From the NCBI GenBank assembly GCA_017557785.1, contig JAFYYA010000031.1, positions 1 through 52,473 of the forward strand: a stretch of 52,473 bases of DNA, written 5' to 3'. Position 1 is the stretch's first letter; each line of letters opens with the position of its first letter. Shown here piece after piece: positions 15,164 to 48,112 of the stretch. Origin of the DNA: Salinivirgaceae bacterium. GTDB taxonomy: Bacteria; Bacteroidota; Bacteroidia; Bacteroidales; SZUA-534. Position numbers and translations under genes: made by a program. The notes beneath the pieces are model-generated. The model ran no database searches. It was not told the DNA's origin and worked only from the letters and a program-made list of their open reading frames with translations.

Positions 15164-17113
15164 TTATGATTTGCGTTTTCGTTGTTTTTCCAAATCTGTT
15201 TTCAACCAGACGAGTCGCTTGCTCACGAACTCTTTAATCCACGCCACTTCTTCGCTGTAGGTGCGATGCTTGGGCTGCGTGGTGTTAAAGTTGAAGTTTG
15301 CATCAAATCCACCAAACATCGTGGAATCCATTCCAGGCATAGGAAAGGGGAATGCACCAAAGCCACCAGCGGAATCCATACCTGGCATCGGGAATGGAAA
15401 TCCACCAAAACCACCAGCAGAGTCCATTCCTGGCATTGGAAATGGGAATGCACCGAAACCACCAGCAGAGTCCATTCCGGGCATTGGAAACGGGAATTCA
15501 CCAAATCCGCCAGCAGAATCCATTCCAGGCATCGGGAAAGGGAATGCACCGAAACCACCGGTCGAATCCATTCCTGGCATTGGGAAGCCAAAGCCCATAT
15601 CTTCAAAGTCTTCGGGGCTGAAATCCATTGCAGCGGGGTTGTTCATATCGAACCCGGAATCGGTGTAATAGTTCACCGTATCGACCGATGCAGAGAGTGC
15701 CAGTTGTGCTGCCATCGAATCGATGTGAGCCATAATGGTGGCTGAATCGGCAAGCATTGCATTCACTTTTTTCAGCAGAAGGCCGGTGAATTCAGGGTCA
15801 CGCATCATCCGGTCGAACCAGTCGGCTTTGGCAATGTGGTAGCCTTCGGGTTGGTTGTAGAAAGCCATATCGTTCTCGCCGCCGAAGCCCATTGCCAGGC
15901 CGCCCAGACCGCCTTCGTTGCCAAACGGATTGCCGCCAAAGGCAAGGTCGAAATCCCAAATCGGGCCCATCCTGATGATGCCGTCCGCCATAATGTGGCA
16001 GAAGCAACTTGTGAACATATTGCCGTCGAAATCCTTGCTTAACTCTTTGATTAGCAGCCAATCGACAAAACTTTCAAGGTCGATGAGCGTCTTGTAGCCG
16101 GATTCAGGGTCAAGAAAATCGGGGCCGTAGAGCACTGTTTCGAATCGGTCGAGAATGCGCTTGGCTTCGGCCACCACTTCGCGGTCGTTTTTTTTCTTGC
16201 CTTTCAGCGATGTATCTTTGACGTTGAAGATGTTGTTGGTTTTTGCGCCGATAATGTCGCCGCGTCCGGCTTTGCGGTCGGCTTCAATCAGATAGTCGCC
16301 CGGCACGCGCTCTTTGGTGGTTTTAGCCTGCTCGCAAAGGTAGTAGTTGCCGCAGTGGCGGCCATTAAGTACCAGTTCGACGTGCTGCCCGTGGGGTGTC
16401 CAGTCGAGATTAGTATAGTTTTGCCCCAGATAGTTGGCCAACTCGTTGCGCATAAACGACGGGTCATAAAAATTGGCCAGCAGACACCAGCGCTTGCCCT
16501 TCGGCATTCCCAAAAGTCCTGCTTTCTTCTTCAGTTTCAGAGCATAGGGCCGTTTTACCTTGACTGACCACGTTGAGTTGCCGCGTCCCCTGATTTGCAG
16601 GTCGGGCTCGTTGGTTAGGTAGTCAATTTCACCGCTTGCGCGATAGATGGTCATCATGGTGCTGTCCATCCATTTGTGCTTGCTTGTTATTGGTTTTGAG
16701 CCATTGGTGTTGATGTAGATCACCGGAAGGCCGCTGTTGAAAACCATTACAGTGTAGGTGTGCTCATTGCCTTTCGCCACCACTTTATATTGTACTGGCG
16801 CACTGAAATCGACAATGCTCTCGCCGCTTGTCTGCTGCGCGTTGCCAACAAAAACTTTCGCTTTTGGACTTGCGCTGAATGCTGGTTTTAGTTTGAAATC
16901 TACAAGATACGGAATGAGAATTTTAATGGTGTCGCCCGAAACAGAGGCTGAGTAATCACTGAGTAACTGCCTGTTGTCGGCTTGTAACAGACTGAAAGTC
17001 AGTAGTTGGTTATTGGCAGTGTGTTTCTCGGTAGCCGCGGCCGATGTTGGAAGGCAGCGGCTCACAATGAGCACCGCCACAAGCAGTTTTTGCAATGTCC
17101 GTTTATTTTGCAT
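15164..17113 (-). CDS. CotH-like kinase-fold secreted protein with repeat tail
   Basis: 649 residues from the ATG at 17113 (MQNKRTLQKLLVAVLIVSRC signal peptide). After a beta-rich N-terminal region (about 35-130) comes the CotH domain, an atypical protein-kinase fold: LQIRGRGNSTWSV, KRPYALKLKKKAGLLG, WCLLANFYDPSFMRNELA, CGNYYLCEQAK and the metal-loop motif GPIWDFDLAFG. The C-terminal part carries a 16-residue repeat, GGFGAFPFPMPGMDSA and variants, encoded by the 48-bp minisatellite at 15323-15600. CotH proteins in spore formers phosphorylate coat proteins; the substrate here is unknown. Confidence 0.88.
   Translation of the reverse strand: MQNKRTLQKLLVAVLIVSRCLPTSAAATEKHTANNQLLTFSLLQADNRQLLSDYSASVSGDTIKILIPYLVDFKLKPAFSASPKAKVFVGNAQQTSGESIVDFSAPVQYKVVAKGNEHTYTVMVFNSGLPVIYINTNGSKPITSKHKWMDSTMMTIYRASGEIDYLTNEPDLQIRGRGNSTWSVKVKRPYALKLKKKAGLLGMPKGKRWCLLANFYDPSFMRNELANYLGQNYTNLDWTPHGQHVELVLNGRHCGNYYLCEQAKTTKERVPGDYLIEADRKAGRGDIIGAKTNNIFNVKDTSLKGKKKNDREVVAEAKRILDRFETVLYGPDFLDPESGYKTLIDLESFVDWLLIKELSKDFDGNMFTSCFCHIMADGIIRMGPIWDFDLAFGGNPFGNEGGLGGLAMGFGGENDMAFYNQPEGYHIAKADWFDRMMRDPEFTGLLLKKVNAMLADSATIMAHIDSMAAQLALSASVDTVNYYTDSGFDMNNPAAMDFSPEDFEDMGFGFPMPGMDSTGGFGAFPFPMPGMDSAGGFGEFPFPMPGMDSAGGFGAFPFPMPGMDSAGGFGGFPFPMPGMDSAGGFGAFPFPMPGMDSTMFGGFDANFNFNTTQPKHRTYSEEVAWIKEFVSKRLVWLKTDLEKQRKRKS
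15323..15600. repeat. 48-bp coding minisatellite in the CotH-like gene
   Basis: The unit recurs exactly every 48 bases, at 15323, 15371, 15419, 15467, 15515 and 15563. It encodes 16 residues rich in Gly, Phe, Pro and Met. Differences between units are mostly silent, which shows selection on the peptide. Copy number is expected to vary by slippage or recombination. Confidence 0.93.
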
Positions 17114-23952: not shown

Positions 23953-24621
23953 TTATTTGCGCAGCTCTTTAACAATTGTCAACGACTCTTTCACCTTGTT
24001 CTCAATGAAGGCCCAGTCGCCTTTTTCAATCACGTCTTTCGGTGTCAATTGTGAGCCAAGCCCGACGCAAGCCACACCAGCCTTGAACCAAGCTTCGAGG
24101 CTCTCGCGTTCAGGTGCCACACCACCCGACGGCATAATGTTCGACCACGGGCACGGTGCTTTGATGGCCTTCACAAACGATGGGCCGCCAACTTCCTTGC
24201 CAGGGAAAATCTTCACAATCTCGCAGCCCAACTCTTCGGCCAGATTTATTTCCGAGAGTGTGCCGCAGCCAGGCAACCACGCAATCTTGCGGCGGTTGCA
24301 GGTCTTTGCCATATCAGGATTGAGCGACGGCGAGACGATGAAGTTAGCACCTAACTGAATGTAAAGCGCAGCCGTTGCGGGGTCTACAACAGAGCCCACA
24401 CCCATTGCCATTTCGGGGCAAGCCGTGGCGCACCATTTGTTCACTTCAGCAAACACTTCGTGTGCATAATCGCCGCGGTTGGTGAATTCGAACACCCGCG
24501 CACCGCCTTTGTAGCAAGCCAGAACCACCTGTTTAACTTTTTCAACGTCAGCATTGTAGTACAATGGCACAATGCCAGTCGAAAGCATTGTGTTTAGAAC
24601 GTTCATTCTTGAAAATCTCAT
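23953..24621 (-). CDS. eda: KDPG/KHG aldolase
   Basis: 222-residue 2-dehydro-3-deoxy-6-phosphogluconate aldolase. The Schiff-base Lys137 lies in IVKIFPGKEVGG and the catalytic Glu45 in VFEFTNRG. Phosphate-binding glycines are in MPSGGV. It cleaves KDPG to pyruvate and glyceraldehyde 3-phosphate, the last step of hexuronate breakdown. It is the last gene of the operon, after kdgK and the four-helix-bundle insertion, from whose stop it is 82 bp away. Confidence 0.96.
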   Translation of the reverse strand: MRFSRMNVLNTMLSTGIVPLYYNADVEKVKQVVLACYKGGARVFEFTNRGDYAHEVFAEVNKWCATACPEMAMGVGSVVDPATAALYIQLGANFIVSPSLNPDMAKTCNRRKIAWLPGCGTLSEINLAEELGCEIVKIFPGKEVGGPSFVKAIKAPCPWSNIMPSGGVAPERESLEAWFKAGVACVGLGSQLTPKDVIEKGDWAFIENKVKESLTIVKELRK

Positions 24622-24659
24622 ATGTATTTGTTTTTAGTTAATATTTAATTTTTTTCTTT

Positions 24660-24691
24660 GAGAGTTAGAGAGTTAGAGAAGTAGAGAGTTA
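24660..24691. repeat. 8-nt tandem array, downstream side of four-helix-bundle gene 1
   Basis: Four units GAGAGTTA, GAGAGTTA, GAGAAGTA, GAGAGTTA in perfect 8-nt register. Its complement is the array at 25126-25181. It lies between the four-helix-bundle stop and the eda start. Confidence 0.88.
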
Positions 24692-24703
24692 GAAAATAAA
24701 TGG

Positions 24704-25102
24704 TTAGTGTGAATGGTTATTTTGAGCGTTTTTAGATTTATTTCTTTCTCTAATGCTTACAATAAAACCGCTTAACATTTTCGATAACTCATCGCATTGT
24801 TTTTCAATTGATTCATATTCATCACCAATGTAGTTAAGTCTTTGTGCAATCTCCACTTGTGTTTGTAATTCGCATAGAGACCCTTTTGCTATCTGCAGGA
24901 ATCTGATAAAATCGCCATCGCTGTGTCGACCAAATCCTTCTGCAATATTTGATGGAATTGAAACCACACTTCGGCGCATTTGTGATGATAATGCAAAATT
25001 CTCTTCAGCAGGAAATTTATTCAAGATGGAATAAATACCGATTACCAAATCCATAGATTTTTGCCAAATGCTTAATTCCTTATATGATTTTACATATCCC
25101 AT
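24704..25102 (-). CDS. Four helix bundle protein 1 (23S rRNA-IVS protein family)
   Basis: 132 residues from the ATG at 25102; an upstream in-frame extension is translated repeat array and is rejected. The family signature is clear: SYKELSIWQKSMDLVIGIY, SSQMRRSVVSIPSNIAEGFG, FLQIAKGSLCELQTQV. Members are small four-helix bundles first known from 23S rRNA intervening sequences and related in fold to the Avd protein of diversity-generating retroelements. Basic and helical, it may bind nucleic acid. It has no metabolic link to kdgK and eda, and is about 40% identical to the protein at 27768, so the two are not a recent duplication. Confidence 0.93.
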   Translation of the reverse strand: MGYVKSYKELSIWQKSMDLVIGIYSILNKFPAEENFALSSQMRRSVVSIPSNIAEGFGRHSDGDFIRFLQIAKGSLCELQTQVEIAQRLNYIGDEYESIEKQCDELSKMLSGFIVSIRERNKSKNAQNNHSH

Positions 25103-25125
25103 TTTAATTCGATTCAAATATTTAA

Positions 25126-25181
25126 ACTCTCTGTCTCTCTGTCTCTCTAACTCTCTAACTCTCTCATCTACTAACTCTTCC
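25126..25181. repeat. 8-nt tandem array, upstream side of four-helix-bundle gene 1
   Basis: Seven 8-nt units: ACTCTCTG, TCTCTCTG, TCTCTCTA, ACTCTCTA, ACTCTCTC, ATCTACTA, ACTCTTCC. It is the complement of the array at 24660-24691. It runs over the 3' end of kdgK, whose last residues (GRVSR) and stop codon are written in repeat sequence. Confidence 0.88.
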
Positions 25182-26198
25182 GCTCGCGTCGCCCGACATA
25201 AGTTTCTCAACTTCCTGAACACTCACGCGGTTGTAATCACCGTAAATTGTGTGCTTCAGGCACGATGCGGCAACGGCGAAGTTCAGCGCCTTTTGGTCGT
25301 CGCCAGTGTAGGTTTGCAGGCCGTAGATTAGGCCGCCCATAAACGAGTCGCCGCCACCAACGCGGTCAACAATGTGAGTTATCTGATATTCAGGCGATTT
25401 GAACAGCGTTTTGCCGTCGTACAATACGCCCGCCCAGTTGTTGTGGTTGGCATTGATTGAACTGCGAAGCGTGGTGATAACCTTTTTCGCATTCGGGAAG
25501 CGTTTCATAATCTGTTGTGATACCGACAGATAGGCTTCTGCAACCACTTTGCCGCCTTCGATGTTCACGCCTTCGGGTTTGATGAGAAGGGCTTTTTCAG
25601 CGTCTTCTTCATTTCCTAGAATCACGTCGCAATACTCTACCAACGAGGGCATTACTTCGTCGGCACGCTTGCCGTACTTCCATAGGTTTTTGCGGTAGTT
25701 GAGGTCGCACGAGATGGTGATTCCCAACTCTTTAGCCACTTTCAGCGCTTCAAGGCAGACGTCGGCCGCACCCTGCGAAATGGCAGGCGTGATGCCTGTC
25801 CAGTGGAACCAGCCAGCGCCTTCGAACACCTTCTTCCAATCGACCATACCAGTTTTGATTTCCGAAACCGACGAGTGCGCGCGGTCGTAAATCACTTTCG
25901 ATGCACGGCTAACTGCGCCAGTTTCAAGGTAATAGATACCAATGCGGTCGCCGCCGAAAACCACGTCGTTCACGTCGACACCCAGGCCGCGAAGTTCGCG
26001 CAGGCAGGCTGTGGCAATGTCGTTTTGTGGCAGACGAGTGACGAAACTTACAGGTATACCGTAGTTTGCAAGCGAAACGGCCACGTTGGCTTCACCGCCG
26101 CCGAATGTGGCGTTGAAACTGTTCGATTGCAAAAATCTTTCATAACCAGGGGCGGCGAGCCGTAGCATTATCTCGCCAAATGTTACTGTCTTTTTCAT
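25164..26198 (-). CDS. kdgK: 2-keto-3-deoxygluconate kinase (PfkB family)
   Basis: 344 residues from the ATG at 26198 (MKKTVTFGEIMLRL); a longer upstream start is just the repeat-containing leader. PfkB sugar-kinase marks: FGGGEANVAVSLANYG, the second signature DRVGGGDSFMGGLIYG with the catalytic Asp. It phosphorylates KDG to KDPG, the substrate of Eda encoded downstream. The C-terminal GRVSR overlaps the 8-nt repeat array, suggesting that insertion replaced the end of the gene. Confidence 0.94.
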   Translation of the reverse strand: MKKTVTFGEIMLRLAAPGYERFLQSNSFNATFGGGEANVAVSLANYGIPVSFVTRLPQNDIATACLRELRGLGVDVNDVVFGGDRIGIYYLETGAVSRASKVIYDRAHSSVSEIKTGMVDWKKVFEGAGWFHWTGITPAISQGAADVCLEALKVAKELGITISCDLNYRKNLWKYGKRADEVMPSLVEYCDVILGNEEDAEKALLIKPEGVNIEGGKVVAEAYLSVSQQIMKRFPNAKKVITTLRSSINANHNNWAGVLYDGKTLFKSPEYQITHIVDRVGGGDSFMGGLIYGLQTYTGDDQKALNFAVAASCLKHTIYGDYNRVSVQEVEKLMSGDASGRVSR

Positions 26199-26223
26199 TT
26201 TCGATTTTTGATTTAAAGTTGAA

Positions 26224-26269
26224 CACAGATTACACTGATTCAACAGATTATCACAGATTTAATTGATTT
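26224..26269. repeat. About 9-nt tandem array between uxaC and kdgK, no gene
   Basis: Units CACAGATTA, CACTGATTC, AACAGATTAT, CACAGATTT, AATTGATTT. It occupies the third internal junction of the hexuronate operon, 26 bp upstream of kdgK. No clear complementary half is present and no gene lies within it. The rest of the 137-bp intergenic stretch is AT-rich. Confidence 0.75.
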
Positions 26270-26334
26270 ATAATCAAATTACAATTTTAGTTTATTTTTT
26301 GATAAATGCTGATGCCTAATGGCTTTTGCCTTTC

Positions 26335-27735
26335 CTAAAATTTAAAGTAGTTTTTCGCATTGCGATAGCAGATGTCGGCCACCATATTTCCCAGTAAATC
26401 AATATCGTTTGGCAGTTCGCCGTTTTCGACGTCGGTGCCGATAAGGTTACAGAGAATGCGGCGGAAATAGTCGTGGCGCGGGTACGACAGGAAACTGCGC
26501 GAGTCGGTGAGCATACCCACAAATCGGCTCAACAGACCGTGACACGACAAGCAGTTGAGTTGCTTCTCGATGCCGTCTTTTTGGTCGAGGAACCACCACG
26601 CCGAGCCCCACTGCATTTTGCCCGCCACGGTGCCGTCCTGAAAGTTGCCAATCATTGTCGCAAACACTTCATTGTCAGCAGGGTTGATGTTGTACAAGAT
26701 GGTTTTTGCGAGTTGGTTGGTCGAGTCGAGACGGTTGAGGAACTTGCTCATACTCAAGGCTTGCGAGAAGTCGCCGATTGAGTCGAAACCCGTGTCGGGG
26801 CCGAGAGTGGTGAGCAACCGCGTGTTGTTGTTGCGGATTGGCCCTGCGTGGAACTGTTGCGCCCAGCCTTTGGCGTGAACTTGCAGCGCAAACCTATAGA
26901 GCGCAGCCGAACGGAATTTTAATATCTCGTTGGCGGTCAACTCTTTGCCACTTCTCACTTTCGTGAATATGGCTTCAATTTCAGCGTCGGTGTAATCTTC
27001 GGAATAGAGGAAGTCGAGACCGAAATCGGCCAAACGGCAACCAACTGAGTGGAAATAGTCGATGCGGCGGTCGAGCGCGTCAAACAACGCTTTGAAACTG
27101 TTTATCTCAATGCCCGACACTTCGGCCAGACGGTCGATGTAGGCGTTCCAGGCAGCGGCGTTGGTCACGTCGGCAGCCTTGTCGGGACGCCAGGTTGGCA
27201 GAATCTTCGCGGGGCAGTCCGATGCGGCTATTTGCTTGTGATATTGCAGATTGTCAATCGGGTCGTCGGTGGTGCAAGCCGTCTCAACCTTCATTTTTCG
27301 CAACATTCCCCATACGCTGAACTCGTCCGACTTGAGCATTTCCGATGTACGGTTCCAAATCTCGTCGGCCGATTCGGGGTTGAGCAGTGTGTCGATACCG
27401 AAGTAGAGTTTCAACTCGAGGTGAGTCCAGTGGTAGAGCGGGTTTCGCAGCGTGTACGGAACCGTCTGCGCCCACGCGTCGAACTTCTCGCGGTCGGTGG
27501 CGTTGCCCGTCACAAATCGCTCGTTGATGCCGTTGGCGCGCATTGCCCGCCATTTGTAGTGGTCGCCCGAGAGCCAGATTTGCGCAATGTTGTCGAACTT
27601 GCGGTTCTCGGCAATCTGCTGCGGAATCAGGTGCGAGTGGTAATCGATAATCGGCTGATTTTTAGCAAAGTTGTGATAGAGTTCCTGCGCTGTTTTCGCC
27701 TTCAGCAAGAAATTATCAGTAATGAAAGTTTTCAT
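26335..27735 (-). CDS. uxaC: Glucuronate (uronate) isomerase
   Basis: 466 residues, the normal family length. Marks include IIDYHSHLIPQQIAENRKF (metal-binding His pair), TDDPIDNL, CRLADFGLDF and SYPRHDYFRRILC. It isomerises glucuronate to fructuronate and galacturonate to tagaturonate, the first step after uptake. Its ATG lies 14 bases after the 7-nt repeat array of element 2. The later reductases and dehydratases (UxaB/UxuB, UxaA/UxuA) are not in this window. Confidence 0.97.
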   Translation of the reverse strand: MKTFITDNFLLKAKTAQELYHNFAKNQPIIDYHSHLIPQQIAENRKFDNIAQIWLSGDHYKWRAMRANGINERFVTGNATDREKFDAWAQTVPYTLRNPLYHWTHLELKLYFGIDTLLNPESADEIWNRTSEMLKSDEFSVWGMLRKMKVETACTTDDPIDNLQYHKQIAASDCPAKILPTWRPDKAADVTNAAAWNAYIDRLAEVSGIEINSFKALFDALDRRIDYFHSVGCRLADFGLDFLYSEDYTDAEIEAIFTKVRSGKELTANEILKFRSAALYRFALQVHAKGWAQQFHAGPIRNNNTRLLTTLGPDTGFDSIGDFSQALSMSKFLNRLDSTNQLAKTILYNINPADNEVFATMIGNFQDGTVAGKMQWGSAWWFLDQKDGIEKQLNCLSCHGLLSRFVGMLTDSRSFLSYPRHDYFRRILCNLIGTDVENGELPNDIDLLGNMVADICYRNAKNYFKF

Positions 27736-27749
27736 ATCTCTTTGTTTTT

Positions 27750-27784
27750 GGTGTTAGGTGTTGGGTGTCAGGTGTTAGGTGTTT
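27750..27784. repeat. 7-nt tandem array, downstream side of four-helix-bundle gene 2
   Basis: Five exact-register 7-nt units: GGTGTTA, GGTGTTG, GGTGTCA, GGTGTTA, GGTGTTT. It includes the stop codon and last codons (TPNT) of the four-helix-bundle gene and ends 14 bases from the uxaC start. Complement of the array at 28199-28226. Confidence 0.9.
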
Positions 27785-28172
27785 CATTTTGGTTCGACTT
27801 GTTTTTGGCCGAATCTTTAAGTTTGCTAATCAGATTGTTAAGTTTTCTACCTATAACTTGACACTGTGCGGAAATCGTATTTTTGTCGGTATCCGATATG
27901 TATTGAAAGGAAGCGGCAAGTTGAACTTGTGTTTCCAACTCAAAAAGCGAACCGCGTGCTATCTGCAAAAAGTGGCAATAATCGTTCAGACTGTCTCGAC
28001 CAAAACCTTCAGCAATGTTTGATGGTACTGATATTGCGCTGCGTCGGATTTGTGAGTTGAGCGCATACAATTCTTCTTTTGGAAAATCTTTCAAAAGTAT
28101 ATGAATGACTTTTGCCAAATCCATAGACAAATTCCAAACTTCTAAATCTTTGTAAGAATTTATTTTACCCAT
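27768..28172 (-). CDS. Four helix bundle protein 2 (23S rRNA-IVS protein family)
   Basis: 134 residues from the ATG at 28172 (MGKINSYKDLEVWNLSMDL). The family core is SQIRRSAISVPSNIAEGFG and FLQIARGSLFELETQV. Its Lys/Asn-rich C-terminus (NKSNQNETPNT) ends in codons drawn from the 7-nt repeat. It sits between the transporter and uxaC genes on the same strand and so is very likely co-transcribed with hexuronate genes without a metabolic role. See element 2. Confidence 0.93.
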   Translation of the reverse strand: MGKINSYKDLEVWNLSMDLAKVIHILLKDFPKEELYALNSQIRRSAISVPSNIAEGFGRDSLNDYCHFLQIARGSLFELETQVQLAASFQYISDTDKNTISAQCQVIGRKLNNLISKLKDSAKNKSNQNETPNT

Positions 28173-28198
28173 AATTTTGAACCTATTTGTCCTTAATC

Positions 28199-28226
28199 CA
28201 ACACCCAATACCCAACACCCAATACC
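28199..28226. repeat. 7-nt tandem array, upstream side of four-helix-bundle gene 2
   Basis: Four perfect-register units CAACACC, CAATACC, CAACACC, CAATACC. It begins directly after the stop codon of the MFS gene (in transcript direction) and lies 26 bases upstream of the four-helix-bundle ATG. Confidence 0.9.
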
Positions 28227-28227
28227 A

Positions 28228-29673
28228 TTATTTAACTATCGGTTTATACTGAGGCACAAGCACCTTCATAATTGTCCACGCAAGCAGGTAGGCCACGGCG
28301 CAGTAGCAGAACACCATCATATATCCCGCAGGTTTGCCTGTGGTGCCAAAGAAGGTGAAGGCGTCGCCAAGTTCTTCGGCGTGAGTGAACAGCATACCCG
28401 AGCCCTTGTTGATGGCGAACGAGCAGAGGCCGCCAAACATTGTGCCGATGCCTGTTATGGTGGCTATGGCCGATTTCGGGAACATATCGCCGATGGTTGA
28501 GTAGAGGTTAGCCGACCAAGCCTGATGTCCCGCGCCAGCCAAGCCAATGATGACGCACGGCCACCACGGTGAGATGCCTGCCAGCGGCTGCGCGAACATT
28601 GCAAATATCGGCAGAAAGGCGAAAATCAGCATTGCCCGCATACGTCCTGCGTAGGGGTGCATTCCCATTTTTTCGACAAATAGTTTCGGCAGATATCCGC
28701 CATAGATAGATACCACAGTTACAATCAGATAGAGCACAAAAATGAGCAGTTGTCCCATTCCCGACGACGATGGATAGCCCAGTTCGGAAAAATAGGCGGG
28801 TGCCCAGAAGAGGAAGAACCACCACACACCGTCGGTCATTAGTTTACCAACGATGAACGCCCACGTCTGACGGTATTTGAAGCAGTCGAGAATTGAGAAT
28901 TTCGGTTCGTCGGCAGTGCTTGTCGATACTGATTTTTCGGCAGTTTCTTCTTTATCCGACTCAATATAAGCAAGTTCCGCTTCGTTTACAAACTTGTTCT
29001 GCGCAGGTGCCGAATAGAGGAACAACCACGCGCCAGCCCACACAAAACCGATGGCACCAATCACGATGAACGCCATTTCCCAGCCCATATGTTTTGCCAG
29101 AATCGGGATTGTCAGCGGGGCTGCAAGCGCACCCACCGAGGCACCCGCATTGAAGATTGATGTGGCGTAGGCGCGGTCCTTTTTCGGGAAATATTCCGCC
29201 GTAACCTTGATTGCTGCGGGGAAGTTGCCCGACTCGCCTGTGGCAAGAATTATGCGGCAGGCAAGGAATAGCCAAACGCTTATGGTTGAGATTGTTAACG
29301 CCAATTCAGAACCTTTTGTCACAGCGCGCAGCGCTTCAATGTCGGCAATGCCCGTGAGCCGCATTGTGGCCCAGCCGCAAGCCGCGTGCAGACAGGCGCC
29401 AAACGACCAGATGACAATGGCCCAGATGTAGCCTTTTTTGGTGCCCATCCAGTCGATGAATTTGCCAGCAAACAGCGATATGAATGCATAGAAAATTGAG
29501 AATGTGGCGGTTATGTTGCCATAATCGTTGTCGTTCCAATGGAAATCGAGTGCGATAAAATCCTTCCACGTGAGTGAAAGTACTTGACGGTCGAGGTAGT
29601 TGACCGTGGTTGCCAAAAACAGCAGGCCGCATATCGCCCACCTGAAATTGGTCATTTTCTGATTTGTGGTCAT
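28228..29673 (-). CDS. MFS transporter, hexuronate (ExuT-like) family
   Basis: 481 residues with about 12 membrane segments. The start FRWAICGLLFLATTVNYLDRQ and the GESGNFPAAIKVTAEYFPKKDRA loop are typical of the anion:cation symporter/hexuronate branch. It should import galacturonate or glucuronate with protons. It is the first gene of the operon followed by uxaC, kdgK and eda, which supports the substrate. The N-terminus begins next to a small 15-nt direct repeat (29674-29703). Confidence 0.92.
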   Translation of the reverse strand: MTTNQKMTNFRWAICGLLFLATTVNYLDRQVLSLTWKDFIALDFHWNDNDYGNITATFSIFYAFISLFAGKFIDWMGTKKGYIWAIVIWSFGACLHAACGWATMRLTGIADIEALRAVTKGSELALTISTISVWLFLACRIILATGESGNFPAAIKVTAEYFPKKDRAYATSIFNAGASVGALAAPLTIPILAKHMGWEMAFIVIGAIGFVWAGAWLFLYSAPAQNKFVNEAELAYIESDKEETAEKSVSTSTADEPKFSILDCFKYRQTWAFIVGKLMTDGVWWFFLFWAPAYFSELGYPSSSGMGQLLIFVLYLIVTVVSIYGGYLPKLFVEKMGMHPYAGRMRAMLIFAFLPIFAMFAQPLAGISPWWPCVIIGLAGAGHQAWSANLYSTIGDMFPKSAIATITGIGTMFGGLCSFAINKGSGMLFTHAEELGDAFTFFGTTGKPAGYMMVFCYCAVAYLLAWTIMKVLVPQYKPIVK

Positions 29674-29887: not shown

Positions 29888-30060
29888 CATCCGCTATGAA
29901 ATTTATACCAAATAATAATGTGGCTCATCCATACGATTATTGCGGGTTGGTGAATGGTTTTGTTTATGCAGGACTAAATGCTTGTTATACAAATAGAAGA
30001 AAACAACAATAACATACAATTTAAAAGTTGCGCACGACACGGATTCAGTGTATCGATTCT

Positions 30061-33000
30061 ATGAAAAAAATATTTTTATCAATGCTGATGAGCCTGAGTG
30101 TAGGCTTGTGTGTGGCTCAAAGTGTGCCTTACGAGTACACAATCACTAACAGCCACACAATCAGTCTTCACAGGTACACAGGTACCGAAACATCTATCGT
30201 GATTCCGGACAGTATCAACGTCAATGGTACAAAATACCCGGTTATGGCGATTGATACTGCTTACCTGAGTTTCAAACCGTTGATGTCGGTTACCGTGCCA
30301 AGTACTATCACCGAGATTGCCTACGATGCTTTCGCAGGTGTGAAAAATGTCATTTACAATGGCACGGCAGAAGGTAGCCCGTGGGGCGCCAATGTGGTGA
30401 ACGGTGTGGTTGATGGTGATTTTGTATATACAAATACTTATAAGCATTTCCTTGCTGCCTACATCGGCACCGATACCCTTGTTAGAATTCCTGATAATGT
30501 GAGTGTTATATGCGAAAAGGCTTTAGCCGACAATCAGAATGTTTCCACGGTGGTAATGACGTCTGTCGACAGCATTGAGAACAACGCGTTTTCAAGTTGC
30601 TCGAGCCTTAAATATATAACTATACCAAACTCTGTACGCAAGATTGGTGACTACGCTTTTTATATGTGCAACAGTCTGAAAACTATTAGTGTCCCAAATT
30701 CGGTTTTCGTCATTGGCAATAATGCATTTAAAGGTGTAAAGAACGTTGTTTACTCAGGTAGCGTTTCAGGTAGCCCGTGGGGTGCAATGATTGTGAATGG
30801 TGTGGTTGACGGTGATTTCGTTTTTTCTGATGCCGAAAAGGAAAATCTTGTTGCCTATGCCGGTAGCAGTGCCAATGTTGAAATTCCTGTAAGCGTCAAA
30901 AATATTGGCAAATCGGCTTTCGGAAATAATGAAAACCTTCAGACAGTAACAATGACAGGTCCGGTTGTCAGCATCGGTGAGTCAGCATTCTCTTATAGTA
31001 AAAATCTGACATCGATTAACATCCCTAATACAGTCGAAAGTATTGGTTTTGCGGCGTTTTCGGGTTGCAGCAGTCTTGAAACCATCACAATCCCCAATTC
31101 GGTTTCATCCATAGACATGTCGGCATTCAACGGTTGCAGCAGTCTGACAATCTATTGCGATTTTGCTTCGAAACCTGACGGGTGGCACGATAATTGGAAT
31201 CCGTCATGGAATCCGTGCCCGGTTGTGTGGCTCAAGTCGCCGGCAAACTTGTTCGACTGCACAGTCAACGAAAATACCCAAACGGCCGGTATTCGCTATT
31301 ACAAGGGAAATGAAAAGGACATCGTGATACCGGACACTATTACCATCAATGGTGTTGACTATAGAGTTACATCAATTGACACAACTATTCACTATGATTT
31401 GAATTCTGTAACCGTACCAAGATCAGTTACAAGTATTTACCGTGACGCTTTTAGATGCGTGAAAAATGTCATCTATTCGGGCACGGCAACAGGCAGCCCG
31501 TGGGGCGCATTGGTTGCCAATGGCGTGGTTGACGGCGATTTCATCTATTACGATAATTGGAAAGATTATGTTTGCGGCTTCATCGGTACCGATACCCTAG
31601 CAAGAATTCCTGACAATGTGCGCATTATCGGCCAAAATGCTTTTGCCGACAATAGGACAGTTTCCACGGTGGTGATGACGTCGGTTGACAGCATTGAGAA
31701 CAGTGCATTTTCAGGTTGCACGAACCTTAAATATATAACTATCCCCAACTCTGTAGACAAGATTGGCGATTATGCATTCGGATGGTGCAGTAGCCTTAAG
31801 AGCATCACCATCCCGACTTCGGTATTTGGTATGGGCAGTTATGTGTTCACTGGCTGCAGCAAACTGACAATTCACTGCGACGCCGCTTCAAAACCTGCAA
31901 GTTGGCCGGACAATTGGGTTGCATCGTGGAATCCGTGCACGGTTGTTTGGAACACACCCGCACCGGCAAAATACACACTGACAGTTTTGGCCAACAACGC
32001 GGCATTCGGTACGGTTACGGGGTCAGGTACATACAATGTCAATGACAGCATAACAATAACTGCTACGCCTAACGAAGGCTATGAGTTTATCGGTTGGAAC
32101 GATGGCGACAAACGTGCCGAGCGCATTGTTGGTGTTTGGAAGGATTTGACGTTCACCGCAAACTTCCGTAAGATGTTCAATCCGAACCGCAATGTCGACA
32201 ATATGAAATATCTCATTACCGATACTCTGACAAAAACAGTTGAACTTCAAGGTTTTGTCATTGATACCATCTATGCGGTTATTCCTGCCAAGATTGTTTC
32301 TGAAGGCGTGCAATACACCGTTACGAGCATTGGCAACTCAGCGTTCAACGGTTGCGTGAAACTTGATTCTGTCGGAATCCCGAGTACGGTTACTACAATT
32401 GGTGCCAATGCGTTTGCGGGCTGCACCGGCATGGTGTCGCTCTATGTTCCTGACTGTGTGACGACCATCGGCAGCAACGCATTCTTGAAGGTCAAAAATG
32501 TGGTTTACCACGGCTCAGCAACAGGCGAGCCTTGGGGTGCACTGACCGTCAACGGAACTTTCGATGGCGATTTCATCTATTCAACTGATAACCTGACAGT
32601 TTACACAGGAACCGATTCGGTGGTTGCCATTCCCGATTCAATTTCGAGCATTGGCAACAACGCTTTCGAAGGCTGCACAACAGTTACTGAAGTGATTATT
32701 CCAGAAACTGTTACAGAGATCGGCAGCAACGCCTTCTCAGGTTGCGAAAACCTGACTTCGGTCAACATTCCGACATCGGTTACAACCATCAGCGAAGGTG
32801 CGTTTGCCAACTGTGCAAGCCTTGATTCGGTTGTTCTGCCTGAAAATCTGACAGAAATCGGCCATGGCGCATTCAACGGCTGCTCAAGCCTGTCGACTAT
32901 CGACATCCCGGAAACGGTTACAACCATTGGTAACGGTGCCTTTGCCGACTGCTCGAAACTTGATACTGTGGTCATTCCGGAATCGGTGACTGAGTTGGGC

Positions 33001-34050
33001 AGCAATGCGTTCTCGGGTTGCACCAACCTTACTTCGGTCAACATTCCAAGTTCGATTGAGAGCATCCGCGACAGCGCGTTTGCCAACTGCACAAGCCTTG
33101 ACGCTGTGGTTCTGCCTGAAAACCTTACGGAAATCGGAAGCGGTGCTTTCACAAGTTGCACAAGCCTGAGTACCATTGAGATACCACAAACGGTAGCGAA
33201 CATTGGCGCGGCAGCGTTTGCCGGTTGCACCAAACTCGATTCGGTGGCCATTCCGGTATCGGTAACAACCATCGGCGACAGCGCGTTCAGCGGCTGCACA
33301 AGCCTTACAAGCATCGGTATCCCGACATCGATAACAACCATTGGCGCAAGCACATTCAGCGGCTGCGTGAGTCTCGATTCAGTGGCCATTCCGGCATCGG
33401 TGACCGAGATTGGCAGCAGCGCGTTCAGCGGTTGCGCAAGCCTGTCGACTATCGACATTCCAAGTTCGGTAACTCAGATTGGTGATGGTGCATTTGCCTT
33501 CTGCAGCAGCCTTGAGACAGTTCAGATTGGCGAGATAGATAGTGTGGAAAATACTTTGAAATCGAAAACCATTGTGATTATGGCGGGTGAAGACGATGTT
33601 GTTGTTGGCGCCCGTGCGTTCTATGGCTGCGAAGGCCTGAAATCGGTGTTCATTCCATCGAACGTGACTGTGATTGGCGATTCGGCCTTTGCCGGATGCA
33701 AGAATCTGACCATTTATTGCGAAGCAGCATCGCAGCCTGCCGGATGGGCTGAGAATTGGAATCCTGAAAACTGCAAGGTTGTTTGGGGCTACAAGGCTGC
33801 TGTTGATAATGGTGGCGAAGTTACTGCTGTCGCCGAATCGGCCGCCTGCGCAGTCAACATCTACGCTCACCACAATGTTATTGTGGTTGAGAACGCCGAT
33901 GCCGAGATTCTCATCTACAATGCCATGGGCCGTTTGGTTGTTAGTAGAGACGCGGCGAGCCACGTCTCTACAGAGATTCGCATGAACACCGCGGGTGTTT
34001 ACATTGTCAAGGTTGGCAATGTGGCGAAACGTGTTATGATTAATGATTGA
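30061..34050 (+). CDS. BspA-like leucine-rich-repeat surface protein with type IX sorting tail
   Basis: 1329 residues from the ATG at 30061 (MKKIFLSMLMSLSVGLCVAQ). It consists of BspA/LRR_5 repeats of 23 residues (VTTIGDSAFSGCTSLTSIGI and relatives), densest at about residues 760-1240. Four longer modules begin with VKNVxYxG and continue xGxPWGA...NGxxDGDFxY at about residues 94, 226, 467 and 811. An InlB B-repeat-like domain is at about 637-705 (FGTVTGSGTYNVNDSITITA). The last 85 residues form a type IX secretion C-terminal signal (ILIYNAMGRLVV, MNTAGVYIVKVG). Such proteins are cell-surface adhesins. A 28-nt hairpin repeat is inserted in frame near the end (33944-33971). Confidence 0.92.
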   Translation: MKKIFLSMLMSLSVGLCVAQSVPYEYTITNSHTISLHRYTGTETSIVIPDSINVNGTKYPVMAIDTAYLSFKPLMSVTVPSTITEIAYDAFAGVKNVIYNGTAEGSPWGANVVNGVVDGDFVYTNTYKHFLAAYIGTDTLVRIPDNVSVICEKALADNQNVSTVVMTSVDSIENNAFSSCSSLKYITIPNSVRKIGDYAFYMCNSLKTISVPNSVFVIGNNAFKGVKNVVYSGSVSGSPWGAMIVNGVVDGDFVFSDAEKENLVAYAGSSANVEIPVSVKNIGKSAFGNNENLQTVTMTGPVVSIGESAFSYSKNLTSINIPNTVESIGFAAFSGCSSLETITIPNSVSSIDMSAFNGCSSLTIYCDFASKPDGWHDNWNPSWNPCPVVWLKSPANLFDCTVNENTQTAGIRYYKGNEKDIVIPDTITINGVDYRVTSIDTTIHYDLNSVTVPRSVTSIYRDAFRCVKNVIYSGTATGSPWGALVANGVVDGDFIYYDNWKDYVCGFIGTDTLARIPDNVRIIGQNAFADNRTVSTVVMTSVDSIENSAFSGCTNLKYITIPNSVDKIGDYAFGWCSSLKSITIPTSVFGMGSYVFTGCSKLTIHCDAASKPASWPDNWVASWNPCTVVWNTPAPAKYTLTVLANNAAFGTVTGSGTYNVNDSITITATPNEGYEFIGWNDGDKRAERIVGVWKDLTFTANFRKMFNPNRNVDNMKYLITDTLTKTVELQGFVIDTIYAVIPAKIVSEGVQYTVTSIGNSAFNGCVKLDSVGIPSTVTTIGANAFAGCTGMVSLYVPDCVTTIGSNAFLKVKNVVYHGSATGEPWGALTVNGTFDGDFIYSTDNLTVYTGTDSVVAIPDSISSIGNNAFEGCTTVTEVIIPETVTEIGSNAFSGCENLTSVNIPTSVTTISEGAFANCASLDSVVLPENLTEIGHGAFNGCSSLSTIDIPETVTTIGNGAFADCSKLDTVVIPESVTELGSNAFSGCTNLTSVNIPSSIESIRDSAFANCTSLDAVVLPENLTEIGSGAFTSCTSLSTIEIPQTVANIGAAAFAGCTKLDSVAIPVSVTTIGDSAFSGCTSLTSIGIPTSITTIGASTFSGCVSLDSVAIPASVTEIGSSAFSGCASLSTIDIPSSVTQIGDGAFAFCSSLETVQIGEIDSVENTLKSKTIVIMAGEDDVVVGARAFYGCEGLKSVFIPSNVTVIGDSAFAGCKNLTIYCEAASQPAGWAENWNPENCKVVWGYKAAVDNGGEVTAVAESAACAVNIYAHHNVIVVENADAEILIYNAMGRLVVSRDAASHVSTEIRMNTAGVYIVKVGNVAKRVMIND
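33944..33971. repeat. 28-nt hairpin repeat inside the BspA-like coding region
   Basis: Starts GTAGAGACG and ends CGTCTCTAC, a 9-bp perfect stem continued by GGC/GCC after one mismatch. It encodes RDAASHVST within the sorting domain, where related tails have a short turn. It has the same length and GTAG...CTAC ends as the hairpin at 34096-34123. Confidence 0.75.
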
Positions 34051-45607: not shown

Positions 45608-48112
45608 TTATGCTTTAAAAATGTTGTTTGGTGTAATGAATTCGATAAACCGCTTGATAACCGACGGCTTTTTGTGGCGGCGCGAGTCGGTGTAGTAGCC
45701 GTCGCCGTAATAACTGTTACCATAGCCATAACCGTAGCCATAGCCGTACCCGTAACCATAACCGTAGCCATAGCCGTACCCGTAGCGGCGGCCGTATCCG
45801 TAACCGCTGTAGCCGTATTTGCCGTTGATTTTGGCATCGTTGAGCAGAATGTTGTAGTCGGGCACGTTCTTGTTTTTGTTCAAGTCGTTCACAATCTCGA
45901 TTGAATTCAAGAAACTATATCCCTGACGCAGTACGAAAATATTGGTGTCGGCGTATTTAGCCAGCAGCATAGCATCAGCCACAAGCCCGATAGGCGGTGT
46001 GTCGATGATAATGTAGTCGAAGCGTTTTTTCGCTTCCTCAAATAAGTGCGCCAAAGCGTCCGACTCAATCAGTTGCGCAGGGTTGGGCGGAACGGGACCT
46101 GGAAGGATTATCCACAGGTTGTCGAATCTTGTCTTGATAATTATGTCGTCGATTTTGCTTTTGCCAATCAGGTATGTCGATATACCAACGCTGTTGTCCA
46201 TCTTGAAAATCTTCTGAATCTGCGGTTTGCGAAGGTCGAGACCCATCAGCAATGTTTTTTTGTTGGTCATTGCCAAAACCGATGCCAAGTTACTTGTACA
46301 GAACGATTTACCTTCGCCACTGAATGTCGATGTTACAAGAATTGTTTTCGATTCCTTGTCAGGCACTAAGTATTGCACGTTGGTTTTTATGGTGCGGAAC
46401 GATTCAGAAATTACCGAACGCGGATTATCGAAAATCACAAGGTCGTTGTCTTCTGTGTTATGTCCAACAATGCCGATAATCGGTGTTTTGGTCCGCTTTT
46501 CAATGTCCTCGCGACTTCTGATTCGGTTGTTGAAGAAGTTGACGAGAATGATTATTCCGATAGGAATGGCCAAGCCTAACAGCAAGGCAACCATATAGTT
46601 GAAACTTGTTTTAGGTTTTATGCGGGCGGCCATATCGGGGCGTGCGTAGTCGAGCACTTGCGCATCGGCAGTGTTGGCTGCGCGTTTCAGTCCCGCTTCG
46701 GCGCGTTTCTCAAGCAAATAGGTGTAAATCTTATCGTTAACATTGAACATACGGTTGATGTTCATCAACTTGCGCTCGTTCGACGGCAGTTTCTCAATCT
46801 GCTGGCTGACTTCGGCAATGCGTTCATCGATGTCTTTGATTGCTATATTGTTGGTCTTCGATAAGTTAACCACGTTTTCCGAAATGAGCAGTTTCAAAGC
46901 GTCAATCTGCGACTCAATCAAATCGAGTTTCGGGTTCGATTTCACCGATTGCGCTTTCAGTCCCATCTGCTCTTCGTTAAGAGAGTTAAGACGCATAATG
47001 AAGTTTATCAGCAGTTGGTCGCGGATGCCAACGGCCGTCGGCACAATCACACTTTGTGTGTTCTGCTTATCTTTAAGATATTCAGTGATATAATCATAAT
47101 ATTTCTGCTCAACAAGAAGTTCCGCCTTTTGAGTGTTCAGGTCTTCGTATTGTTTGTAAAGCAACTGACCCTCTTGCGTGATGTTGATAATCATATTTTT
47201 GGTACGGAAATCCTGCAAGTGGCTGCCCGTAACGTCGAGCGAGTCCATCACCGATTCAATCTGCTCATCGATAAATGCGATGGTGTTGGCCACCACATCG
47301 TTTTTCTTGTTCAGTCCGTAGCGGATGTACACTTCGGTCAGTTTGTTTAGGTAGTCGCAAACCTCGTCGGGCATAAAGCCTGTTGCAGTCAGAATCAGAA
47401 TGGTGCTTTTTTGGTCCGACTGCTCAATGGCCACGCCGTTGCGGTATTTGTTAACCAACGCGCTGTGGCTGTTGATGGTGACATCATACTCGCCTGGATT
47501 TTCGTCATAGAATCGTTCGGGGTTGCGAATCAGTACTTTAAACTTGAAATTCTCGTTTTCGAATGTGTCACCGAAATTAACCACTGTGTCAATTTCGCGT
47601 GGTTCGTAGTTGAAGGTGTACTCACATCTCAAACGATATTTTTGGTCCGATAAAATCTTGATGTTCAGCGGAATATTGTAGCCTTGTGCATGCGATGTGT
47701 CGGGAATCAGATTCAGTTGGTCTGGCAGATACCGCTGTATGGTGTGGATGCGTCCGTGACGGTGGTAACTGACACCGAAATCGAGTTCCGAAATCACTTC
47801 ATCGTTAATCAGATACGACTTTAGGATACCAATCTGGTTTTGGATGTTCACGCCCGTGTTGAGCGTGTTCATTGTCTGGATGATATCTTTTGCATCGACA
47901 CGATTCGATTTCTTATCCTCTTCGTTTACCAAAATTGTCGAACTAACTCTGTAAACGGGTGTGGTATAACGGTTTACCAAGTATGCGACGCAGATGCTCA
48001 AAAAGCACGAAATGACAAACCACTGCCAATTGGCCAAGCCAATCATCAGGTACCGCTTGATGTCGGCACCATTGTCATCTTGCTGATTTATATTATTTTG
48101 CTTGTTATCCAT
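45608..48112 (-). CDS. wzc: Polysaccharide co-polymerase / tyrosine autokinase (Wzc, BY-kinase)
   Basis: 834 residues. Wzz-type N-terminal domain with a membrane segment at about 27-47, long coiled-coil periplasmic part, second membrane segment at about 505-528, then the cytoplasmic BY-kinase. Walker A is TSTFSGEGKSF (about 600), Walker A' LLMGLDLRKP, Walker B IIIDTPPIGL (about 700). The tail (about 758-804) is a run of GY dipeptides with 20-odd tyrosines, encoded by repeats at 45719-45800. Tyrosine-cluster phosphorylation controls polysaccharide export with Wza. 5 bp after wza. Confidence 0.95.
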   Translation of the reverse strand: MDNKQNNINQQDDNGADIKRYLMIGLANWQWFVISCFLSICVAYLVNRYTTPVYRVSSTILVNEEDKKSNRVDAKDIIQTMNTLNTGVNIQNQIGILKSYLINDEVISELDFGVSYHRHGRIHTIQRYLPDQLNLIPDTSHAQGYNIPLNIKILSDQKYRLRCEYTFNYEPREIDTVVNFGDTFENENFKFKVLIRNPERFYDENPGEYDVTINSHSALVNKYRNGVAIEQSDQKSTILILTATGFMPDEVCDYLNKLTEVYIRYGLNKKNDVVANTIAFIDEQIESVMDSLDVTGSHLQDFRTKNMIINITQEGQLLYKQYEDLNTQKAELLVEQKYYDYITEYLKDKQNTQSVIVPTAVGIRDQLLINFIMRLNSLNEEQMGLKAQSVKSNPKLDLIESQIDALKLLISENVVNLSKTNNIAIKDIDERIAEVSQQIEKLPSNERKLMNINRMFNVNDKIYTYLLEKRAEAGLKRAANTADAQVLDYARPDMAARIKPKTSFNYMVALLLGLAIPIGIIILVNFFNNRIRSREDIEKRTKTPIIGIVGHNTEDNDLVIFDNPRSVISESFRTIKTNVQYLVPDKESKTILVTSTFSGEGKSFCTSNLASVLAMTNKKTLLMGLDLRKPQIQKIFKMDNSVGISTYLIGKSKIDDIIIKTRFDNLWIILPGPVPPNPAQLIESDALAHLFEEAKKRFDYIIIDTPPIGLVADAMLLAKYADTNIFVLRQGYSFLNSIEIVNDLNKNKNVPDYNILLNDAKINGKYGYSGYGYGRRYGYGYGYGYGYGYGYGYGYGYGNSYYGDGYYTDSRRHKKPSVIKRFIEFITPNNIFKA
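45719..45800. repeat. GY-dipeptide coding repeat in the BY-kinase tail
   Basis: 6-nt base unit (Gly-Tyr) with a higher-order 30-bp unit repeated at 45726-45755 and 45756-45785. Synonymous choices (CCGTAG, CCATAG, CCGTAC, CCATAA on the plus strand) repeat in the same order, showing recent 30-bp duplication. Confidence 0.85.

Follow-up and report, generated by a model that had tools for sequence, protein, structure and literature searches.

Inverted arrays of short tandem repeats frame two small four-helix-bundle genes in a hexuronate operon of a Salinivirgaceae bacterium (Bacteroidota), on the 52,473-nt contig JAFYYA010000031.1 of assembly GCA_017557785.1, which was analysed at its full length and is called the window below. 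Both genes, named A and B, belong to PF05635 (23S-rRNA intervening-sequence protein (IVP), Avd-like), and the arrays on the two sides of each gene are inverted complements of each other. Arms of this build were found at 147 of 216 distinct PF05635 genes from many phyla (four survey sets, deduplicated), they lie at stop codons in operons, and orthologous junctions of related genomes are filled in some and empty in others. We consider it probable that gene and arrays together are selfish DNA elements of a REPIN/RAYT-like kind, suited to stop-start junctions, in which the four-helix-bundle protein is the cognate factor that binds the ends.

The PF05635 proteins occur widely and have had no explanation, and several authors have been puzzled by heptameric repeats between genes (PMC4692102, PMC4679880). 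Array and protein seem to be the two halves of a single thing, by which both become testable; if true, an operon-friendly insertion strategy would be added to those of mobile DNA and the 23S rRNA intervening sequences would be given a home. A link between a four-helix-bundle, S23 or IVP gene and flanking short tandem repeats was not found in titles or abstracts of the papers that searches of the open-licence PMC literature listed.

Two symmetrical elements in one operon

All genes of the operon are on the minus strand, in the order exuT-like, gene B, uxaC, kdgK, gene A and eda. The genome (G000) is a metagenome-assembled genome (MAG), 94.1% complete and 7.05% contaminated; G003 and G007 in the list are congeners.

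28228..29673, minus strand: exuT-like major facilitator superfamily (MFS) transporter (PF07690), upstream host gene; stop codon at 28228-28230
28198..28226, minus strand: 5' arm of element B, TGGGTGT/TGGGTAT, 7 nt, in mRNA sense; begins directly past the exuT stop
27768..28172, minus strand: four-helix-bundle gene B (PF05635 23S_rRNA_IVP, E 4.4e-37; weak bAvd match); 3' end overlaps the 3' arm
27750..27783, minus strand: 3' arm of element B, inverted complement of the 5' arm; terminates ahead of the uxaC start
26335..27735, minus strand: uxaC, glucuronate isomerase (PF02614, E 7e-204, profile match)
26310..26334, minus strand: degenerate TAGGCAY-type array behind the uxaC stop, read by eye; a clear 7-nt array in G003 and G007
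26223..26259, minus strand: solo CACAGATTA array, unit about 9 nt, without gene or visible inverted partner; resembles PDDEXK_3 arms by eye
25164..26198, minus strand: kdgK (PF00294 PfkB kinase); stop TGA formed with the first array bases
25125..25178, minus strand: 5' arm of element A, GAGAGTTA, 8 nt, in mRNA sense; overlaps the kdgK stop
24704..25102, minus strand: four-helix-bundle gene A (PF05635, E 1.8e-41, profile match; PDB relatives 2gsc and 2rld)
24660..24693, minus strand: 3' arm of element A, inverted complement by alignment of the array pair
23953..24621, minus strand: eda, KDPG/KHG aldolase (PF01081, profile match), downstream host gene

Against a curated PF05635 cut-off of 33.8 bits the two genes score 141.1 and 127 bits, and both match the bAvd profile weakly (E 5.4e-7 and 4e-5). 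The arms pair as 24660-24693 with 25125-25178 (A) and 27750-27783 with 28198-28226 (B), and alignment of the array pairs gives complementarity of 41 nt at 78% and 28 nt at 82%. The elements measure about 480-520 nt, each with its own unit of 7 or 8 nt; the PF05635 gene lies alone between the arms, without a transposase gene, and both elements are placed between protein genes and not within a 23S rRNA gene. A preliminary description of this DNA had reported short-tandem arrays at all three junctions, and these are real; 14 arrays were counted in a 222-kb sample of the genome and none in three block-shuffled versions of it. The description saw half of the arrangement, which consists of two symmetrical elements with an array on each side; that the arrays are insertions on their own, enclosing a gene by chance, is not supported, for gene and arrays make up a single element with inverted ends. 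The equal placement that it saw at all junctions holds for two of the three, while the CACAGATTA array lies 75 nt past the uxaC stop (26335) and ends 24 nt ahead of the kdgK start (ATG at 26198 assumed).

Inverted arms accompany PF05635 genes in many phyla

Arms were scored by alignment of the upstream flank with the inverted downstream flank within 200-260 nt around the gene, a score of at least 30 being required and mismatched upstream/downstream pairs serving as control. The loci were mostly best profile matches rather than random draws, with open reading frames (ORFs) taken from a simple script. In the genus and its relatives (84 matches, 73 unique, 68 with flanks) 53 of the 68 PF05635 ORFs have arms, compared with 3.1% of mismatched pairs; the figures are 12/32 and 2.1% in a draw from the phylum, and 61/85 and 1.5% among 80 named loci, with 22/35 for further genes of the phylum. 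Other genes of the named loci reach the same score in 2 of 118 cases. Among the named positives are a cyanobacterium, Clostridia, Planctomycetes, Acidobacteria, Verrucomicrobia, Lentisphaerae, Cloacimonadota and Betaproteobacteria, and the single archaeal MAG scored 29, one below the threshold. A special standing of the operon is not supported, for all six PF05635 genes found in the window genome carry arms, with a different unit each. PF05635 is matched in 232 of 296 genomes of the phylum by profile search, 220 of them above the cut-off.

The best period among the 147 positives is 7 in 101, 8 in 34, 6 in 6, 9 in 4 and another value in 2. On the mRNA strand G outnumbers C in the 5' arm of 108 of 125 elements and C outnumbers G in 14; stop codons are frequent in this arm (0.088 per nt vs 0.053 on the opposite strand). 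Elements A and B would be members of a large family of about 430-520 nt, with one PF05635 gene between two inverted arrays and a unit of 6-9 nt, mostly 7, that would be characteristic of each element lineage. In a Saprospiraceae MAG (L211, 1877-2839) two PF05635 genes, 75% identical, stand in tandem with related arrays.

Filled and empty sites

States of the junctions were read by eye. At exuT/uxaC, element B is found in G000, G006 and one G005 contig, and a different PF05635 element with TAGGCAY arms (element C) in G002, G003, G007 and another G005 contig; the junction is empty in G004, G009 and G010 and holds a remnant in G008, and uxaC was not found in G001. The G005 bin has two uxaC copies with differing junction states and is for this reason probably a mixture of two species. 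At kdgK/eda, element A occurs in G000, G001 and a G005 contig, G009 has another element though its kdgK is 99.7% identical to that of the window, and G010 has a third, truncated at the contig end (by eye); G003, G007 and the second G005 contig are empty, and the junction of G006 was not seen. The kdgK gene ends in AGATAA or CGATAA at empty sites but in AGAT|GAGAGAG in G000, the first array bases supplying a new TGA, and a target-site duplication is not readable at the window's own sites. In G002, G004 and G008 (L011, L012, L014) the same junction holds an unrelated gene-less repeat of TATGCAGA and inverted GGTCCATA motifs. The empty junctions that the preliminary description proposed to look for in related genomes thus exist in congeners; the conservation at orthologous junctions that it named as contrary evidence is present in part, some insertions being common to several congeners, with empty junctions alongside.

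Cyanobacterial plasmids gave further comparisons. All eight scored PF05635 loci, out of 40 matching records, have inverted arms (scores 38-63), and those of L351 were additionally seen by eye. At site J1, on plasmid C of Trichormus variabilis, the element is missing from six of the records listed, which are about 97% identical, and three of these were retrieved; the empty site reads AAAAA-GTAAT-TAACAAATAA and the filled one AAAAA-GTAAT-[element]-GTAAT-TAACAAATAA, a clean 5-bp duplication that includes the stop TAA. By script the exact overlap is GTAAT against the Scytonema copy (L338) and none against L329, where one base beside the ATG differs. At J1 a gene-less mini-element of about 100 nt is found in Brasilonema, and a copy with an internal deletion in Nostoc C052 (by eye). 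In a second plasmid operon, Nostoc plasmids bear different elements on either side of one small gene and sister plasmids are empty. Of the two insertions in this operon, that at J4 is in an overlapping TAATG and the ATG is duplicated (3 bp, exact), and at J3 TTCTA is present twice, overlapping the arm unit, with no exact overlap by script. At J2, in ribonucleotide reductase (RNR) genes, CTAA is suggested (about 4 bp) at 85% flank identity; and at J5 no duplication was seen. Phage records searched with the four-helix-bundle protein gave no match, and the operon DNA searched against plasmids gave one short match of the MFS gene and nothing else.

These sites bear on the simplest explanation, that polymerase slippage at intergenic junctions made the arrays and the four-helix-bundle genes are incidental. 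Copy number does differ among species, and slippage is cited in PMC4692102 as a possible cause of heptamer excess; yet one unit stands on both sides in inverted orientation and is not present at empty sites, which already contradict slippage, and so few of the other genes have such arms (the 2 of 118 above) that we find this explanation scarcely credible.

Placement at stop codons and the RNA alternative

Both neighbours could be called for 134 of the 147 armed elements. Relative to the four-helix-bundle gene their strands are ++ in 111, -- in 10, -+ in 8 and +- in 5, so that neighbours are co-directional in 121 of 134 compared with 229 of 311 control pairs (Fisher p 4.7e-5), and 111 of these 121 elements lie on the same strand as their neighbours. 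The 5' arm starts at a median of 1 nt from the upstream stop (at most 30 nt in 98/116), and the 3' arm ends at a median of 8 nt ahead of the next start (at most 30 nt in 94/119). Closeness of arm and gene is by design because arms were sought only in the flanks defined above; closeness to the host stop and start is not, though operon spacers are short anyway. In the 222-kb sample, 8 of 14 arrays are extragenic with a stop no more than 30 nt away, where random placement would give 5.7%, and without the window arrays the count is 5 of 9 (manual). The idea of the preliminary description that the elements form a family tolerated at, and probably targeting, stop-start junctions is supported by these distances, by the empty congener junctions and by the J1 duplication, which holds the stop codon at a near-isogenic site.

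The host operons are diverse (hexuronate use, cas, conjugation, RNR genes). On cyanobacterial plasmids (L330, L331, L351) PF05635 genes lie between cas6 and cas4 and between cmr2 and cmr3. In cas loci 18 IVP genes were noted earlier, in a paper whose main text has "tandem repeat" 0 times (PMC3936711); such genes may be insertions of these elements rather than Cas components.

The sense orientation within operons is mostly kept, which would also suit an intervening sequence (IVS) acting at the RNA level, whose arms pair in the mRNA as a hairpin of about 30 bp with the four-helix-bundle gene in the loop, are excised by RNase III and are selected as a stem. Protein family and anatomy match the IVS of the Coxiella burnetii 23S rRNA, which has an S23p/IVP ORF between terminal inverted repeats; it is described as 428 nt long, with a 28-bp stem cleaved by RNase III in vitro and variable-number GACAGAT heptamers ahead of the ORF, and is called selfish (PMC4990558). 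Two hypotheses are already cited in that paper, that IVSs are left over from transposition (Burgin 1990) and that they are mobile elements which the ORF helps to move (Ralph and McClelland 1993). IVP ORFs are also reported in 16S and 23S insertions of the candidate phyla radiation (CPR) (PMC11270868). IVSs differ from the present elements in lying within rRNA genes, whereas the latter lie at protein-gene stops, have many units and show a duplication at one site. Mismatches in the arms have no excess of G-U (104 of G-U type vs 148 of A-C type, p 0.007 in the opposite direction), and selection for an RNA stem is not supported by this comparison, which weakens the explanation; moreover, the J1 duplication is a DNA event and antisense elements exist (L326, L327). 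We judge an origin at the RNA level unlikely, and RNA processing could be an additional step.

Protein, unit and purifying selection

Similarity of the units climbs with identity of the four-helix-bundle proteins over 12,012 non-orthologous pairs of 156 elements. Pairs with similar units on the same strand make up 3.4% at less than 30% identity, 1.7-3.3% at 30-50%, 6.3% at 50-55%, 14.8% at 55-60%, 20% at 60-65% and 52% of the 21 pairs at 65-75%, compared with at most 0.9% in every identity bin of the opposite-strand control. A residue code read from the top columns (positions 102, 52, 55, 57 and 60 of the L001 domain) was dropped because it missed the permutation threshold. Derivation of the unit from the target sequence is not supported by eye, one junction bearing different units across species. 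The solved relatives 2gsc and 2rld have five chains per PDB entry, and five four-helix bundles are named in the title of the 2gsc paper.

The PF05635 gene is under strong purifying selection, with a median dN/dS of 0.067 over 45 pairs of at least 70% identity, which are mostly one insertion in different genomes and not independent. Such a value would be expected of a domesticated host device, in which arrays and protein tune expression or stability of operon segments as a translational or termination regulator; the placement between stop and start agrees with it, and translational regulation was proposed for the intergenic TAACTGA heptamers of Beggiatoaceae (MacGregor 2015, PMC4679880). On the other hand, occupancy of the junctions varies among close species, which have other elements or none, and the host operons listed above have little in common, and a device of the host seems to us quite improbable.

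Gene-less arrays and PDDEXK_3 genes

In each congener genome the TAGGCAY unit is found in arrays at 9-132 positions, GAGAGTTA at 0-21 and the AATTACG type at 2-57 (overlapping matches counted), against 0 for the reversed patterns of the three units. Since the congeners have 2-10 PF05635 genes each, gene-less arrays probably outnumber the genes. Among twenty dispersed places read, several, including L275-L279 and L283-L285, are mosaics of many units, G-rich to the left of a spacer and C-rich to its right; others have a single unit type. Gene-less mini-elements are seen at L266:6136-6223, L347 and L392. Of the 9 arrays outside the window in the genome sample, 4 match four-helix-bundle arms of the genus clearly above the reversed control and 5 do not. 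Gene-less arrays would be derivatives that were mobilised in trans or have decayed, in the way that REPINs relate to RAYTs.

Genes of the PDDEXK_3 (GxxExxY) family, matched in 41 of 60 genomes of the class, have inverted arrays too, in 16 of 28 loci at score 30 (5.2% of mismatched pairs) and in 20 of 28 at score 24 (17%), with 28 of 30 loci used; many of the arms are of a CACAGAnnn type. The CACAGATTA array is best read, from its resemblance to such arms, as a solo remnant of a PDDEXK_3-type element, and the PDDEXK_3 gene of the window genome itself has degenerate inverted arms of another sequence (by eye). In G010 (L010) a small 4Fe-4S ferredoxin-like ORF (by eye) stands at uxaC/kdgK directly behind a CACAGATTA-type array and is possibly further cargo.

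Published heptamer repeats

Heptamers of GGGAATC have been described in Xanthomonas between aligned ORFs, on the sense strand near stops and often as inverted pairs; those of Nostoc, GGGGA(T/C)T, are intergenic and stand on the sense strand close to stop codons (Rehm et al. 2015, PMC4692102). In the main texts of this paper and of PMC4679880, "helix bundle" and "S23" have 0 occurrences. The units of the window differ from GGGAATC, and the pattern was met in 1 of 369 genomes of a class-wide draw (G777), where the single PF05635 match (profile positions 1-64) has inverted GGGAATC arms between neighbours that look like accB and accC, with dispersed GGGAATC arrays also present. In the family of G777, which is probably that of the xanthomonads, 28 of 30 retrieved PF05635 loci have inverted arms, and 11 of 30 have at least two GGGA[ATC]TC on each strand of the flanks by strict count; mismatched pairs also score there (17.6%) because units are shared. 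To judge from these sequences, the published GGGAATC heptamer is the arm unit of PF05635 elements in this probable xanthomonad family, and such elements may be the source of many puzzling bacterial heptamer repeats. The G-rich published heptamers resemble the present arrays in being intergenic, 7 nt long and sense-strand near stops, with inverted pairs in Xanthomonas.

Comparison with mobile systems

In the REPIN/RAYT systems a cognate repeat in inverted arrangement accompanies a vertically inherited gene. The likeness to the present elements lies in the dispersed non-autonomous derivatives beside a distinctive gene; RAYTs, however, stem from an IS200-like transposase whereas the gene here is PF05635, and REPINs are built of REP (repetitive extragenic palindromic) palindromes whereas the units here are tandem repeats of 7-8 nt. 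RAYTs are described as single-copy and seemingly unable to mobilise themselves, with non-autonomous dispersed derivatives (PMC3116915). Foldback (FB) transposons share terminal inverted repeats made of tandem repeats, being reported with such composite ends and with forms like miniature inverted-repeat transposable elements (MITEs) (PMC3169594); unlike the present elements they are eukaryotic, and Tm1 has a unit of about 14 bp, a 9-bp duplication and, in some members, a putative transposase. DNA transposons with terminal inverted repeats likewise are present or absent at orthologous sites, and differ by the transposase gene, which is not found between the arms here.

Diversity-generating retroelements have their targets near the 3' ends of genes, as do the present elements. 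Their Avd protein is of a four-helix-bundle family with weak profile similarity to the present one (the bAvd matches above), and an Avd-like protein could recruit a reverse transcriptase in trans for retro-mobility. Many carrier genomes differ from these systems in having no RVT_1 match: it is missing in G000 by profile search and in 17 of 28 genomes that carry the four-helix-bundle genes, among which are single-contig genomes that have 9 to 15 such genes. A resident reverse transcriptase therefore seems dispensable and dependence on it is not supported, which makes this route very unlikely.

Proposed mechanism and evidence against it

Our preferred explanation, REPIN/RAYT-like selfish elements, would work as follows. 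The element would insert at or beside stop codons in operons, in sense, and its array or a short duplication would keep the upstream gene terminated and the downstream start in place. The four-helix-bundle protein, with its relatives of five chains, most likely binds the unit of its own element at each DNA end as the factor that recognises the ends, and it would be needed for movement; in population structure the elements would be REPIN/RAYT-like. A wider proposition, to which we give somewhat less than an even chance, is that of a new class of mobile elements across many phyla, in which a pentameric four-helix bundle as the sole protein reads a private tandem address of 7-8 nt at both DNA ends, protein and address co-evolve as lock and key, and stop-codon targeting spares operons; most orphan heptamer arrays and the 23S rRNA IVSs would then be debris or captured members, and PDDEXK_3 a second lineage with the same plan.

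Several facts weigh against the preferred explanation. PF05635 is not known to have a catalytic domain. At score 30 or above, 69 of the 216 surveyed genes have no arms. Among the five filled/empty sites a clean duplication is found at J1 only, every cluster of at least 75% protein identity in the genus and its relatives is one junction across genomes (by eye), and no recent transposition between loci was caught in that set. A host function would also account for the purifying selection and for the sharing of insertions. Residue-level coupling of protein and unit stays below the permutation threshold (1.70 vs 1.94). The TAGGCAY arrays are many in G004, G008, G009 and G010, where element C was not seen at exuT/uxaC, and the abundance of solo arrays does not simply follow the cognate gene. 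From the literature, S23p of Coxiella is suggested not to be made in vivo (PMC4990558); and in PMC4692102, loci near heptamers are more stable than controls, heptamers generally have no link with mobile elements, inverted pairs are few in Nostoc and the repeats are absent from plasmids.

Other repeats in the window

Three repeats of other kinds lie elsewhere in the window. A 48-nt tandem repeat of 5.5 copies at 15324-15587 is inside a predicted ORF and has a length that is a multiple of three. At 30028-34050 an ORF of 1340 aa with internal repeats of 69 and 276 nt is like a leucine-rich-repeat surface protein, with a resemblance to BspA-like proteins. At 45720-45806 a hexamer/30-nt repeat of the TAGCCG type lies within the ORF 45608-48112.

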